Assembly: GCA_018666775.1 (NCBI GenBank)
Contig: JABIXC010000017.1
Coordinates: 124,001-188,000 of the forward strand
Direction: 5' to 3'
Origin: Rhodospirillales bacterium
GTDB taxonomy: Bacteria; Pseudomonadota; Alphaproteobacteria; SMXQ01
Length of the DNA stretch: 64,000 bases
Under the pieces are notes generated by a model. It worked only from the letters and a program-made list of their open reading frames with translations. It had not been told where the DNA came from and did not search any database. The position numbers were made by a program, and so were the translations under genes. Below, piece by piece: positions 43,003 through 49,103 of this stretch. Within the stretch, counting starts at the first letter, position 1; the number at the start of each line of letters is the position of its first letter.

Positions 43003-43518
43003 ATGACGTTTCTAGGTGAAATAAAAACCCGCGCCCGACATATTGTCGGCCCTGTTTTGGCAGCAACCCTGTTTGCCTATTTTTCCTATCATGCGGTCCA
43101 GGGGGACCGTGGCCTGATTGCCTGGCTGAATTTGGTTCAGCAAGTCCAGGATTCTCAACTGGAATTTGATAAATTATCGGCAAAACGCCAGGTTTTGTTG
43201 CGCCGTGTTCGGTTGCTTCAATCCAACAGCCTTGATCGGGATCTTTTGGATGAGCGCACCCGGGCAATTCTGGGGTATGCGCATCCCGATGACATCATCA
43301 TTTTATCCGATGATTTGACATCCCTTCCGGCCAATTTGTACCGCCACCGCGTTGTCCATCATGGTGCCACGGCTGCTTTGAACCCGATCACAGGGCGCAA
43401 ATCGAAACCCGCAGGGTTTTCCGTCTTTATTCCCGAAGCAAAGGCTTCAACCTTGTCGCCATCGACTCCGGCCCCGGTCCAGTCCATAAAGCCAAGCCGG
43501 ATTTCATTCGTTTACTGA
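43003..43518 (+). CDS. ftsB: FtsB/DivIC-like septum formation initiator
   Basis: Small bitopic division protein of 171 residues. A short basic N-terminus is followed by one membrane helix (about 15-32), then a coiled coil (about 48-75) and the motif SLDRDLLDERTRAILGYAHPDDIIIL that marks this family. After about residue 105 there is an extra 65-residue Pro/Ser/Arg-rich tail; the usual length is near 100. Its place between eno and pdhA is conserved in alphaproteobacteria as I know them. Confidence 0.85.
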   Translation: MTFLGEIKTRARHIVGPVLAATLFAYFSYHAVQGDRGLIAWLNLVQQVQDSQLEFDKLSAKRQVLLRRVRLLQSNSLDRDLLDERTRAILGYAHPDDIIILSDDLTSLPANLYRHRVVHHGATAALNPITGRKSKPAGFSVFIPEAKASTLSPSTPAPVQSIKPSRISFVY

Positions 43519-43556
43519 TTTTATCTTCATTTCAGGGCCATATCAGAAAAAGTTGT

Positions 43557-43578
43557 AGGCACGTTTTGTGCCTTTTTT
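43557..43578 (+). terminator. Rho-independent terminator after ftsB
   Basis: AGGCAC (43557-43562) pairs with GTGCCT (43568-43573) over a 5-base loop, followed directly by a run of Ts to 43578. Confidence 0.8.
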
Positions 43579-43685
43579 ACGTCTAATCCAGATTTGTAAA
43601 TGCGGTATGGCTTTTTGTGTCTTAAATTTGGGGCGCGCTTTTCGAATCTTGCTTGCCCAGCACCATAACAGTAGTTTATTTCTAC

Positions 43686-43708
43686 AATTAACTATAATCA
43701 AGTTAATT
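43686..43708. promoter_or_regulatory. Inverted repeat enclosing TATAAT upstream of pdhA
   Basis: AATTAACT (43686-43693) and AGTTAATT (43701-43708) form a perfect 8-base inverted repeat with a 7-base spacer. A perfect -10-like TATAAT lies at 43693-43698. No good -35 is visible at 16-18 bases. It is a candidate promoter-operator for the pdh operon. Confidence 0.5.
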
Positions 43709-43866
43709 ATCTCTATCCCATTGAATTCTAATGATATTTTATTCTTCTTGTTATCACTACATTAGGTGTAGGGTTTGTCCCGGTCGCGACCCGCTGATTT
43801 GGCGAATGGCTCGCGCCCTGTAAATCCAGTGAGCAAACCAGTGAAACGATTAAGGCAGATAACATC

Positions 43867-44955
43867 ATGGTCCGCGCCGCTTCTAAATCATCTGGCAAGA
43901 AAAAGCCCAAAGCCCCTAAAAAGCCCAAAGCCAGCAAAGCATCTGCTGGCGCTGCAAAAGTGAAAACCAAATCTCCTGCACGCAAATCCAGTGCAGGGAA
44001 GGTTGAAATGCTGGCATTTTATGAACGCATGCTTTTGATCCGTCGCTTTGAGGAAAAGGCAGGCCAGCTTTATGGCCAAGGGCTGATTGCAGGCTTCTGT
44101 CATCTTTATATTGGTCAAGAGGCCGTGGTGGTTGGCATGCAGGCTAACCTTAAGTCAGATGATTCGGTGATAACCACCTATCGTGATCACGGTCATATGT
44201 TGGCGTGTGGCATGGAACCCAAAGGGGTGATGGCAGAATTAACCGGCAGACAAGGCGGTTATTCTCGCGGCAAGGGTGGCTCCATGCACATGTTTTCAAA
44301 GGAAAAGAATTTCTATGGCGGCCACGGTATTGTTGGCGCTGGCGTTCCCATCGGCACTGGCCTTGCCTTTGCCAACCGGTATCGGGGCAATGATGCGGTG
44401 TCGCTGACCTATTATGGGGATGGTGCATCCAATCAGGGACAAGTCTGGGAAAGTTATAATATGGCAGCCCTTTGGAAGTTGCCGGTTATCTTCATTGTTG
44501 AAAACAACCAATACGGCATGGGCACCTCTGTTGCCCGCGCCTCAGCCAGCCCGGATTTTTATCGCCGAGGGGAGCCTTTTGGTATCCCCGGCCGCAAGGT
44601 TGATGGCATGGATGTTTTGGCGGTCCAAGAAGCCGGTGCCGTGGCCGTGGCCCATTGCCGCGCAGGAAAGGGGCCGTATATTTTGCAGATGGAAACCTAT
44701 CGCTATGGTGGCCATTCCATGTCGGACCCTGCACGCTACCGGACACGGGAAGAAGTACAAAAAATGCGCGAAGAAAGAGACCCGATTGATCACTTGTCAG
44801 ACCTTATGTTTGCCCAAAAACTGGTGAAGGCGGACGACCTCAAAAAAATTGATGCGAAGGTTAAAAAGATGGTCACTGAAGCTGCTGATTTTGCCATTGC
44901 AGATACTGAACCGGCGCCTGAAGAACTCTACACTGACGTTCTGGCGGAGGTTTAA
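43867..44955 (+). CDS. pdhA: Pyruvate dehydrogenase E1 component alpha subunit
   Basis: Thiamine diphosphate-dependent decarboxylase subunit of the pyruvate dehydrogenase complex, 362 residues. The TPP motif runs from GDGASNQGQVWESYN to VENNQYGMGTSV. Other blocks are FCHLYIGQEAVVVGM, SRGKGGSMHMFS and YRYGGHSMSDP. Odd: residues 1-45 are a Lys/Ala/Ser/Pro tail with 14 Lys before the conserved core (MLAFYERMLLIRRFEEK). The underlying DNA carries the direct repeat AAGCCCAAAGCC twice. It heads the pdhABC-lpd-lipA run. Confidence 0.96.
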   Translation: MVRAASKSSGKKKPKAPKKPKASKASAGAAKVKTKSPARKSSAGKVEMLAFYERMLLIRRFEEKAGQLYGQGLIAGFCHLYIGQEAVVVGMQANLKSDDSVITTYRDHGHMLACGMEPKGVMAELTGRQGGYSRGKGGSMHMFSKEKNFYGGHGIVGAGVPIGTGLAFANRYRGNDAVSLTYYGDGASNQGQVWESYNMAALWKLPVIFIVENNQYGMGTSVARASASPDFYRRGEPFGIPGRKVDGMDVLAVQEAGAVAVAHCRAGKGPYILQMETYRYGGHSMSDPARYRTREEVQKMREERDPIDHLSDLMFAQKLVKADDLKKIDAKVKKMVTEAADFAIADTEPAPEELYTDVLAEV

Positions 44956-44958
44956 TCG

Positions 44959-46365
44959 ATGTCTAGTCAAATTTTGATGCCCGCCTTATCGCCGACAATG
45001 ACGGAAGGCAAAATTTCCAAATGGCTTAAGAAAGAAGGGGATGCCGTGCGCCCCGGTGACCTTCTTGCCGAGATCGAAACCGATAAGGCCGCAATGGAAG
45101 TCGAAGCATCGGAAGAGGGCATCATTGCCCAGATTCTGATAGCAGAAGGCACCGAACATGTTGCCGTCAACACACCCATTGCCGTTTTAGCCGAAGAAGG
45201 CGAAGACGTGGCCCGGGTTGATGCGACAGAAGCAAAACCGGCAGAAGCAGCAGAAGCGACGGAAGCCACAGATGCTGAAGCCGCACCCGCTGCACCCGCC
45301 GCCGCACCAGCGTCTGTTGTCGCACCTGCGGCACCGATCGTGTTGCCGCCATCTGATGTCGACCCTGCTTTCTATGCAAACACCACCAACATTACCGTGC
45401 GCGAAGCATTGCGCGATGCCATGGCCGAAGAAATGCGCCGCGATGATGCCGTGTTTTTGATGGGCGAAGAAGTTGCCGAATATCAAGGTGCCTATAAAGT
45501 CAGCCAGGGATTGCTGGATGAATTCGGGCCTTTGCGCGTGGTCGATACGCCGATCACCGAACAAGGCTTTACTGGTCTAGGTGTTGGTTCTGCATTTGCC
45601 GGCTTGAAGCCGATTGTTGAATTCATGACCTTTAACTTTTCCATGCAGGCAATGGATCAGATCATTAATTCAGCCGCCAAAACCCGTTACATGTCTGGTG
45701 GCCAGATGGATTGTTCCATGGTGTTTCGCGGTGCCAATGGGTCCGCATCCCGCGTTGGTGCGCAGCATTCGCAATGTTTTGCCAGTTGGTTCTCCCATAT
45801 TCCTGGCGTCAAGGTTTTGTCACCGTTTTCTGCCGATGATGCGAAGGGGCTTTTAAAGGCAGCCATCCGCGATCCCAATCCGGTTATTTTTCTTGAAAAT
45901 GAAATCCTATATGGCCGCACCGATGATGTTCCGGTCGACCCTGATTTTGTGGTGCCCATTGGCAAGGCGCGGGTGGTTCGTGAAGGCAGTGATGTCACCA
46001 TTGTTACCTTCTCGCGCATGGTGCAGTTCTCATTAGAGGCCGCCGCGCAACTTTCCGCAGAAGGCATAGAGGCCGAAGTGATCGATCTTCGTTCTTTGCG
46101 CCCACTGGATACGGAAACCATTGCCAAATCCATCGCCAAGACCAACCGGGTTGTGGCCGTTGAAGAAGGCTGGCCTTATGCCGGCATCGGTTCTGAAATT
46201 GCTGCGCGCGTTATGGAAACGGCCTTTGATGATCTGGATGCGCCACTGTATCGGGTTTGCGCCGCAGATGTGCCGCTGCCTTATGCCGCAAACCTGGAGG
46301 CATTGGCCCTTCCCGGTATCGAAGAAGTGATTGCCGGTGTGCGCGCAGTCATGTACCGGGATTAA
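44959..46365 (+). CDS. pdhB: Pyruvate dehydrogenase E1 component beta subunit with lipoyl domain
   Basis: Partner of PdhA, 468 residues. An N-terminal lipoyl domain (1-80) has the lipoylation site [12 protein letters not shown], then an Ala/Pro-rich hinge (about 85-130) and the E1-beta core (about 140-468) with [37 protein letters not shown] and [14 protein letters not shown] lipoyl domain on E1-beta is known from several alphaproteobacteria. It starts 3 bases after pdhA. Confidence 0.96.
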
Positions 46366-46376
46366 GGGGAAAAATC

Positions 46377-47663
46377 ATGGCCATTATCATAAACATGCCC
46401 GCACTTTCACCCACCATGACAGAGGGTAAAATTGCAAAATGGATCAAGAAGGAAGGCGATAGCGTTCGCCCGGGTGATGTGATTGCGGAAATCGAAACCG
46501 ATAAGGCGGCGATGGAAGTCGAAGCATCCGATGAAGGCACGTTGGCCAAAATTATTGTGGCCGAAGGCACCGAACATGTTGCGGTCAGAACCGTCATCGC
46601 CGTGTTGGCAGAAGAAGGTGATGATGCCAAAGCCATTGAGGCCGCGGTTAAGAATGCCGCCGCTGCCCCTGTTGCAGCCCCTGCAGCCCCTGCAGCCCCT
46701 GCACCTGTGGCCGCAGCACCTGTTGCACAGGCCGCACCCGCACCAGTTGCGGCTCCAAAACCAAAACCTGTCGCACCCGCACCAAAACCGGTTGCAACGG
46801 GAGGGCGTGTGATTGCGTCCCCGCTTGCGCGCAGGATGGCCCGTGAAGCAGGCATTGATCTGGCACGCATTTCTGGCACCGGGCCCCATGGGCGCATCAT
46901 CCGCGTTGATGTGGAAAATGCGCCAGCCGGTGGTGGCTCTGGCGGCATTTTTGCAGGTTCCGGACAAGCGTTCCCGCCAGCCGTTGCGCGCACAGAACCG
47001 TTAAACCAGATGCGCAAAATTATCGCCGAACGGTTGACCTTGTCGAAACAGACGGTCCCCCATTTTTATGCCAGCGTCGATTGCGACATTGATGCGCTTT
47101 TGGCATTGCGCAAAGAAATCAACGATAGCGATGAAGGCATTCGCGTTTCGGTCAATGATTTTGTGATACGCGCCGTTGCACTGGCGCTGATCAAAGTGCC
47201 AGCAGCCAATGCATCCTGGGGGGATGATGGCATGAATTATTATTCAGCCGCCGATATCTCTGTTGCGGTTTCGACCGATGGCGGATTGATTACCCCCATT
47301 GTTAAATCAGCAAACAAAAAAGGCATTGCTGCCATTTCCGGTGAGGTTAAAGATCTTGCGGGCCGCGCCAGAGATGGCAAATTGCTGCCCGAAGAATTCA
47401 TGGGCGGCACCTTTACCATTTCCAATATGGGTATGTATGGCATTCGTGATTTTTGCGCCATCATCAACCCGCCACAAGCCTGCATTCTGGCCGTTGGTGC
47501 CGGGGAAGAACGGGTTGTGGCAAAGGACGGCGAAATTGGCACGGCAACCCTGATGACCTGCACTTTGTCTTGTGATCACCGTGCCGTTGATGGCGCGGTT
47601 GGCGCAGAATTTCTTGGCGCGTTCAAAGAATTTATTGAACATCCCATACGCCTGATTCTCTAA
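46377..47663 (+). CDS. pdhC: Dihydrolipoamide acetyltransferase (E2) of pyruvate dehydrogenase
   Basis: Core acyltransferase of the complex, 428 residues from ATG 46377, which has AAGGGG upstream. One lipoyl domain (1-78) nearly repeats that of PdhB; then come an Ala/Pro hinge, a peripheral subunit-binding domain (SPLARRMAREAGIDL, about 145-180) and the catalytic domain ending with LSCDHRAVDGAVGAEFL, containing the catalytic His and Asp. An upstream opening to 46257 lies in pdhB. Confidence 0.96.
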   Translation: MAIIINMPALSPTMTEGKIAKWIKKEGDSVRPGDVIAEIETDKAAMEVEASDEGTLAKIIVAEGTEHVAVRTVIAVLAEEGDDAKAIEAAVKNAAAAPVAAPAAPAAPAPVAAAPVAQAAPAPVAAPKPKPVAPAPKPVATGGRVIASPLARRMAREAGIDLARISGTGPHGRIIRVDVENAPAGGGSGGIFAGSGQAFPPAVARTEPLNQMRKIIAERLTLSKQTVPHFYASVDCDIDALLALRKEINDSDEGIRVSVNDFVIRAVALALIKVPAANASWGDDGMNYYSAADISVAVSTDGGLITPIVKSANKKGIAAISGEVKDLAGRARDGKLLPEEFMGGTFTISNMGMYGIRDFCAIINPPQACILAVGAGEERVVAKDGEIGTATLMTCTLSCDHRAVDGAVGAEFLGAFKEFIEHPIRLIL

Positions 47664-47678: not shown

Positions 47679-49103
47679 GTGGCGGAAACTTCATTTGATC
47701 TAATCGTTATCGGTGGTGGCCCCGGCGGCTATGTTGCGGCTATCCGGGCTGCCCAATTGGGCCAATCGGTGTGCGTGGTAGAACGTGAACACATGGGCGG
47801 CATCTGTCTCAATTGGGGCTGTATTCCCACCAAGGCCTTGTTGCGCACGGCCGAAGTTGCACATCTGGTTGATCGTGCCGGAGAATTTGGCATCAAGGCA
47901 AAGTTCTCAGGCGTTGATCTTGAAAAAGTTGTGGCGCGTTCACGCGGCGTTGCCAATCGTTTGTCCAAAGGCATTTCCAGCTTGATGAAAAAGAACAAGA
48001 TTGCTGTGTTCGATGGCACGGCGCGCCTTGACGGTCTGGCCGCAGGTGGTTTGCGCAAGGTGGCGGTTGAAGTCGCTAAAGAAAATGATGACGCAATAAA
48101 TTTGACCGCCAAAAACGTTATTTTGGCCACCGGTGCGCGGGCACGGACCCTGCCGGGGTTAGAGCCTGATGGCAAAACCGTGGTGACGTATAAAGAAGCC
48201 ATGGTGCCTAAAACCATGCCAAAGAAATTGTTGGTTATCGGGTCTGGTGCCATCGGCATTGAATTTGCCAGTTTCTACAATGATCTGGGTGCAGACGTGA
48301 CGGTGGTTGAAGTCATGGACCGTGTCTTGCCCGTAGAAGATTCTGACATTTCTGCCATGGCCGAAAAATCGTTCAAGAAACAGGGCATGACCATCCTGAC
48401 CAGTACAACGGTCAAGGCCTTGAAAGTGACCAAGGGTAAAGCCACGGCAACCTTTGAAGCCAAAGGTGAGAAATCGGTCAAAGCAACCTTCGACCGGGTT
48501 ATTTTGGCCGTTGGGATTACCGGCAATGTCGAAAACCTGGGCCTTGAGAAAACCCGCGCGCGGATTGAAAAAGGCCATATTGCAATTGATAAATGGGGCG
48601 CCACCGCAGAACCCGGGGTCTATGCCATCGGTGATGTGGCAGGCCCGCCGTGGTTGGCCCATAAAGCCAGCCACGAAGGGGTGGCCTGCGTTGAACATAT
48701 TGCAAACTATGAAGACGCCCATCCGCTGGATACCAGCAACATTCCGGGCTGCACGTATTGTCGGCCACAGGTTGCCAGCGTTGGCCTGACCGAAGCTGCT
48801 GCCCGTGATCAGGGCTTTGAGGTCAAGGTCGGGCGTTTCCCGTTTATGGGCAATGGCAAGGCCATCGCCTTGGGTGAAACCGACGGCATGATCAAGACCG
48901 TGTTTGATGCGAAAACCGGGGCCTTGCTGGGCGCGCATATGATCGGGGCTGAGGTAACGGAACTGATTCAGGGCTTTGCACTGGCGCGGACGTTGGAAAC
49001 CACCGAAGCGGAATTAATGCGCACGGTCTTCCCCCATCCGACGCTTTCTGAAATGATGCACGAATCGGTTCTTGATGCGCATGGCCGCGTCATCCATATG
49101 TAA
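47679..49103 (+). CDS. lpd: Dihydrolipoyl dehydrogenase (E3)
   Basis: Flavoprotein that reoxidises the lipoyl arms of the pyruvate dehydrogenase complex. It has 474 residues from GTG 47679 with GAGG upstream. FAD loop IVIGGGPGGYVAAIRAAQLG, redox-active disulfide GGICLNWGCIPTK, NAD loop LVIGSGAIGIEF and the C-terminal catalytic His-Glu block FPHPTLSEMMHES are all visible. There is no N-terminal lipoyl domain. It lies 15 bases after pdhC. Confidence 0.97.
   Translation: MAETSFDLIVIGGGPGGYVAAIRAAQLGQSVCVVEREHMGGICLNWGCIPTKALLRTAEVAHLVDRAGEFGIKAKFSGVDLEKVVARSRGVANRLSKGISSLMKKNKIAVFDGTARLDGLAAGGLRKVAVEVAKENDDAINLTAKNVILATGARARTLPGLEPDGKTVVTYKEAMVPKTMPKKLLVIGSGAIGIEFASFYNDLGADVTVVEVMDRVLPVEDSDISAMAEKSFKKQGMTILTSTTVKALKVTKGKATATFEAKGEKSVKATFDRVILAVGITGNVENLGLEKTRARIEKGHIAIDKWGATAEPGVYAIGDVAGPPWLAHKASHEGVACVEHIANYEDAHPLDTSNIPGCTYCRPQVASVGLTEAAARDQGFEVKVGRFPFMGNGKAIALGETDGMIKTVFDAKTGALLGAHMIGAEVTELIQGFALARTLETTEAELMRTVFPHPTLSEMMHESVLDAHGRVIHM

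Follow-up and report, generated by a model that had tools for sequence, protein, structure and literature searches.

The 64,000-nucleotide stretch analysed here (the window) carries genes of a pyruvate dehydrogenase complex in the order pdhA-pdhB-E2-lpd, the E2 gene ending at 47663; an ftsB-like gene ends upstream at 43518, and between the latter and pdhA an inverted repeat is situated. Apart from pdhA, the genes of the window were named by recognition. The features of the locus are:

43557 to 43579, plus strand: hairpin (43557-43573) resembling an intrinsic terminator and followed by a T tail, behind the ftsB-like gene (terminator scan)
43686 to 43708, no strand: inverted repeat AATTAACT-N7-AGTTAATT, predicted pdhA operator (sequence, conservation and uniqueness)
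43693 to 43698, plus strand: TATAAT hexamer, non-conserved, probably not the pdhA -10
43720 to 43733, no strand: block ATTGAATTCTAATG, at fixed spacing in close relatives, overlapping the IHF-like register
43752 to 43764, plus strand: TATCACTACATTA, matching the IHF consensus at 8 of 9, about 26 bp off the class-wide register
43769 to 43774, plus strand: TAGGGT, weak predicted pdhA -10 (alignment and scan), 77 bp from the repeat centre
43867 to 44955, plus strand: pdhA, encoding E1 alpha and opening the operon, ATG at 43867
44959 to 46365, plus strand: pdhB, second in the operon, for E1 beta with a lipoyl domain
47679 to 49103, plus strand: lpd-like gene (E3)

Four terminator-like sites were present in the region compared with 1.4 expected; since the hairpin is positioned 3' of the ftsB-like gene, pdhA probably possesses a promoter of its own. 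The PdhA N-terminus (43867-44000) forms a Lys/Ala/Pro-rich, histone-H1-like extension (MVRAASKSSGKKKPKAPKKPKASKA), the coding DNA of which includes a 15-nt direct repeat; Lys-rich PdhA extensions of variable length are also present in relatives.

The repeat consists of two arms of 8 nt (43686-43693 and 43701-43708) that are 100% complementary and separated by the 7-nt spacer ATAATCA, as described in an earlier note on this DNA; the AT-rich island of 100 bases stated there is likewise confirmed (GC of 0.28 across 43650-43749). Its conserved core of 21 bp, ATTAACTATAATCAAGTTAAT, extends from 43687 to 43707, and the distance from the end of the repeat to the pdhA ATG is 158 bp. With up to three mismatches allowed, the window contained two matches to the repeat versus 0.08 expected, this one alone being perfect; genome-wide, the shortened pattern TTAACT-N7-AGTTAA occurred once without mismatch (the repeat of the window), never with one mismatch and 29 times with two. 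Versus 1.3 expected, a sigma-70 scan of 43200-44400 gave two pairs resembling a promoter, each of them on the minus strand.

The operator consensus ATTAACY-N7-RGTTAAT recurs upstream of pdhA across the Alphaproteobacteria: pdhA was located in 52 of 61 related genomes, and the repeat, with altered spacer, lies upstream of it in members of the window's family as well as of further families (named genomes with operator: Rhizobium, Bosea, Nitratireductor, Chelativorans, Acidocella, Thalassospira), so that the motif search proposed in the earlier note has found the repeat conserved. Scored against this consensus, 131 distinct pdhA-upstream regions, a partly pattern-picked set, showed a two-humped distribution (59 at 12-14 and 59 at 7-9, with few intermediates: 3 at 11, 10 at 10), and 12 of 14 was taken as site threshold. 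The 88 sites compared further (72 XRE-positive genomes, one XRE-negative, three without XRE search and 12 named genomes; for the XRE protein see below) yielded the extended consensus ATTAACY-GAAWTTC-RGTTAAT with the outer ATTAAC/GTTAAT strongest. Positions 7 and 15 were occupied by T and A in 26, C and G in 14, C and A in 9 and T and G in 8 of 59 sites; as this mix includes the C/A combination, which breaks an RNA pair, the repeat is regarded as a DNA site, and an RNA hairpin was rejected on this ground. In consequence, the palindrome is, judged from its sequence and its preservation in relatives, almost certainly a conserved operator of pdhA, as the proposal of a site for a dimeric regulator had anticipated, and looks like a very old control site. 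In contrast, the perfect TATAAT around which the repeat had been thought to be wrapped is present in the window, where it overlaps the left arm by one base, but was found in just 5 of the 88 conserved sites and reflects the A/T-rich spacer; a pdhA -10 enclosed by the repeat is therefore without support.

A search of 289 genomes of the class with WTTAACYN7RGTTAAW gave matches in 67, and among 50 matching loci inspected, 25 adjoined pdhA, mostly in larger genomes; AT-rich small genomes yield chance matches to this pattern. With one mismatch allowed, 28 genomes that had been picked mostly for having the operator contained 30 places: every genome but G009 had one at pdhA (27), and three were elsewhere, compared with eight matches of a reversed control pattern in the same genomes. 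As the matches away from pdhA are at chance level, the regulon would comprise one operon at the stringency used. The extra sites occurred in G063, G047 and G075; that of G063 (ATTAACGTGATTTCGGTTAAT, one mismatch) is located about 16 bp before a malic-enzyme-like gene (L178, G063:C5:366000-371000, about 2603-2623) and possibly marks a second, pyruvate-linked target in one genome, or is due to chance. Since the three extra matches are below the control count of eight, a second target is not claimed.

Another palindrome, AGTTTAA-N2-TTAAACT (at least 12 of 14), is situated near the pdhA start in 43 of 80 named pdhA loci (within L037-L114, mostly Rhodobacterales; e.g. L041, L055, L083, L106), and the ATTAAC operator is absent from all 43; where this palindrome occurs, the ATTAAC system has apparently given way to another pdh regulator.

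Regulators were searched for in the window's genome (G000) and in two small genomes with the site, G073 (1.2 Mb) and G083 (1.8 Mb). These genomes have few regulators, and their HTH_3 matches numbered three, four and two, respectively. Common to all three, and present also in G003 and G039, was an XRE protein of about 116-121 residues encoded beside an Smr-domain gene. The protein of the window's genome comprises 116 residues and is encoded outside the window (G000:C3:106901-107248, minus strand); its HTH_3 domain (PF01381; G000:C3:107081-107227) scored 38.5 bits versus a cut-off of 23, and the best solved-structure match of this domain was ClgR (3f51, E 1.5e-7), followed by DdrO, while the NCBIfam HTH match to RamB, according to its family name a regulator of acetate metabolism, reached 30.9 bits. 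The likeness to ClgR, RamB and DdrO is thus one of the HTH domain; the small size of the candidate and scores far below the equivalog cut-offs (30.9 versus 700 bits for RamB, 24.2 versus 170 bits for ClgR) set it apart from ClgR and RamB, whose sites also differ from the pdhA operator. In 45 orthologues the HTH motif AYLSALEHG-RG-P is conserved at 90% or more. Among 47 XRE loci, which include some pairs of stretches from one genome, the Smr gene is directly upstream on the same strand in 42, and hslU is downstream on the opposite strand in 17; an autoregulatory operator near the XRE gene was not found (best 8-11 of 14 across the 47 loci).

Several other regulator types were considered. A MerR protein was considered because of the 7-N7-7 geometry of the operator, which MerR sites resemble; however, the MerR protein encoded beside ihfA was set aside, since it is absent from G083, the only MerR of which is not ihfA-linked, and is present in genomes without the site (G014, G032, G035, G045). 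The MerR-family gene beside ihfA (L198, L203 and other ihfA loci) is itself conserved in genomes with and without the site. A TetR regulator was rejected on the absence of TetR_N matches in G073 and G083; a MarR regulator was made unlikely, as the one match of G073 was not recovered by blastp (E<=1e-8) with the few MarR loci of G000 and G083 that were compared; and the metK-linked XRE protein of G000 and G073 had no counterpart among the two HTH_3 matches of G083.

The presence of the operator closely tracks the small XRE protein. A profile of the latter (alignment A1) matched all 34 site genomes with E values of 1.5e-43 or lower, and among 27 other genomes a full-length match was obtained in G019 alone, the rest showing HTH-only matches at E 9.6e-8 or worse, or none; G019, flagged by the protein, was then found to possess a 12/14 site (TTTAACTGAAATTCAGTTCAT) upstream of pdhA. 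At E<=1e-12, the protein was present in 81 of 289 genomes of the class, the match of G069 (2.6e-14) being remote and the gene of G239 divided between two contigs. From this sample, 47 XRE-positive genomes with unread pdhA upstream regions and 32 hand-picked XRE-negative genomes, mostly of at least 2 Mb, were followed up, and pdhA was obtained in 75 of these 79 (it was not found at the cut-off in the XRE-positive G155 and G267). In the genomes read after the candidate had been fixed, the operator (at least 12 of 14) was present in 36 of 45 XRE-positive versus 0 of 30 XRE-negative genomes; with the earlier ones included and G060 left out on account of too little upstream DNA, the counts were 72 of 82 versus 1 of 52. 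With the reversed pattern, one of these 82 genomes and none of the 52 attained a best score of 12. The same was seen in 30 genomes of the 80 named loci (protein in 12 of 12 with site, 0 of 18 without); pooled, the site occurred in 84 of 94 XRE-positive versus 1 of 70 XRE-negative rows, which are not independent.

At the family level, the site was present in 33 of 36 families with XRE-positive members only and in 0 of 47 with XRE-negative members only; of the four families with both kinds of members, f68 and f92 divide cleanly, f36 carries the protein but no site, and f1 contains G002. The latter genome, 92% complete, has a 12/14 site without XRE match, and its genus-mate G006 has both. Ten of the 82 XRE-positive genomes scored below 12, some with plain operator variants (GTTAACTGAAATCGAATTGAC); no clear operator was found upstream of pdhA in G159, G239, G064 and G069. 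On a PdhA tree of 111 rows, 15 greedily chosen non-overlapping pairs gave 13 concordant, no discordant and two tied cases (sign test, 2.4e-4), and the reverse question 15 concordant, no discordant and three tied pairs; restriction to well-supported branches left five independent pairs, about four concordant and none discordant (p 0.125), with much the same outcome in a 161-row version. The direction is constant, and the strict test is underpowered. This pattern makes the XRE protein the best candidate and a likely binder of the pdhA operator.

Alignment of the 88 sites on the operator revealed a second element in fixed register at positions 27-30 (A/T), 39-45 and 50-51, the last being the best-conserved downstream positions with about 1 bit of information. 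It fits the IHF consensus WATCAANNNNTTR, a string that also appears in published papers, on the plus strand with a start at operator position 39-41. Class-wide, at least 7 of 9 at 39-41 were matched in 29 of 36 families compared with 0-6 at nine other positions; at least 8 of 9 with a start at 38-42 in 31 of 88 sites (shuffles: mean 0.6, maximum 3); and at least 8 of 9 within 70 bp downstream of the operator in 36 of 88, compared with 5 on the upstream side, 7 when the opposite strand was read and 6 for each of two reversed controls. In the window, the class register holds a poor match (5, 4 and 5 of 9 at starts 39, 40 and 41), and the better match TATCACTACATTA may be due to chance. The nearly palindromic block ATTGAATTCTAATG, with counterparts at the same spacing in close relatives (TTTGAATTCTCA, ATTGCAATAACAG, TTTGCAATATAAG), occupies the place of the IHF-like box in the window's family.

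Further downstream, TAGGGT of the window aligns with the -10-like GTGTAT-NN-T of relatives, i.e. TATGAT, TATCGT and TATGTT in G003, G008 and G010, the ends of which are 76-77 bp from the repeat centre; in three Rhizobium genomes the candidates TTGCTG-17-TATGGT or TATGTT end at 98-99 bp, and in two Bosea genomes TCGCCA-17-TACAAC ends at 97 bp, some of the listed candidates ranking below the top-scoring sigma-70 pair of their region. As the candidate core promoters of several members are placed 76-99 bp beyond the repeat centre on the pdhA side, the regulator more likely acts from upstream than by the direct occlusion of the promoter envisaged in the earlier note. The offset of about 21 bp between promoters corresponds to two helical turns and would, as far as these few promoters indicate, suit an upstream activator.

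The reading preferred here, to which we assign a probability of roughly 0.7, is that the pdh operon has a single-copy operator bound by an XRE dimer, with an IHF box downstream and activation from upstream. A dimer of the small XRE protein would bind the repeat some 80-110 bp ahead of the transcription start; the predicted IHF box, starting 28-30 bp after the operator centre in most lineages, would be followed by the core promoter, and bending of the DNA by IHF would enable the dimer to meet RNA polymerase and to activate pdhA. What the sequences provide for this reading is the operator, its conservation and near-uniqueness, the co-occurrence of the XRE protein and the second box in fixed register; activation with IHF is, as the best mechanism, moderately likely. 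The 14-15 bp between the half-sites are wide for a simple XRE dimer, which counts against this binder. The signal might be pyruvate, which is a guess; the protein has no apparent ligand domain, and its activity might be set by its own level or by a protein partner, proteolysis being an idea suggested by the convergent hslU in some lineages.

The main rival is repression by the same protein: the left arm TTAACT would serve as -35 and a -10 would lie just after the right arm, so that binding blocks the polymerase until pyruvate or another signal relieves the block, as for PdhR. Indeed, the best sigma-70 score of G001 belongs to such a pair (TTAACT-18-TATAAT, 10 of 12), and conservation is seen in the A/T-rich block that spans positions 27-30 of the operator alignment (information of 0.42-0.90). 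However, positions 26-31 of the 88 sites do not spell TATAAT, with T in 18 of them at position 26 and A in 19 at position 30, the best-conserved positions 50-51 fall within the IHF-like box, and better-placed -10 candidates exist in several members as given above; repression is hence considered unlikely. Less probable still is that the operator is real and bound by another regulator sharing the distribution of the XRE protein: the screen comprised HTH_3, MerR_1, TetR_N and MarR_2 in 9 to 14 genomes each, but the XRE candidate, taken from three genomes, predicted the site elsewhere (36/45 versus 0/30; 12/12 versus 0/18), and the TetR and ihfA-linked MerR proteins failed in the genomes named above. 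A chance palindrome or leader RNA hairpin, for which the island of 28% GC and the chance frequency of two-mismatch matches in the genome (30 versus 104 for the reversed control) could be adduced, is highly improbable in view of the operator being kept across families with changing spacer, at one site per genome, of its co-occurrence with the XRE protein and of the pair-disrupting C/A in 9 of 59 sites.

The E. coli PdhR operator has the consensus ATTGGT-N3-ACCAAT; the sites described here, ATTAACY-N7-RGTTAAT, are not of this type, in agreement with the earlier remark on their spacing. PdhR resembles the proposed system in acting locally on the pyruvate dehydrogenase operon via an upstream palindrome and differs in operator sequence and spacing, in protein family and in gene order, which here is pdhA-pdhB-E2-lpd. 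A CtrA site (TTAA-N7-TTAA) is not represented either, as the two TTAA are 11 apart and belong to inverted arms in which a C and a G are conserved. The succession of regulator site, fixed-spacing IHF box and promoter recalls IHF-assisted upstream activation, with the difference that IHF binding at pdhA is predicted and the window's own box is weak. According to PMC5343134, PdhR is a GntR-type protein found in 55 genomes of 6 groups and the sole control of aceEF-lpdA in several lineages. In Sinorhizobium meliloti, according to PMC12542648, pdh proteins are positively affected by PhaR (AniA), the motif of which (WNWD2NYGCRNYGCRNH2WNW) is unrelated to the pdhA operator. No description of a pdhA regulator of this kind, of the motif or of this XRE protein was found in the literature searched, which mostly excluded subscription journals.

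Pyruvate dehydrogenase gates the entry from glycolysis into the TCA cycle, and to our knowledge its control in alphaproteobacteria, including nitrogen-fixing rhizobia, is poorly known; Cabanes et al. reportedly found in 2000 that pyruvate induces pdhA of S. meliloti and that in nodules an unidentified factor does so. In its widest form, for which we regard the odds as even, the proposal is a class-wide pdh switch in which a small XRE protein with, at the stringency used, a one-operon regulon would work together with IHF in a nucleoprotein complex of fixed layout at pdhA, retained since the early Alphaproteobacteria and repeatedly lost together with the operator, the Rhodobacterales having replaced it with the AGTTTAA-N2-TTAAACT palindrome. 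If true, both a site and a protein would be named for the control of pdh in alphaproteobacteria, and the joint loss of a regulator and its only operator would represent an unusually clean case.
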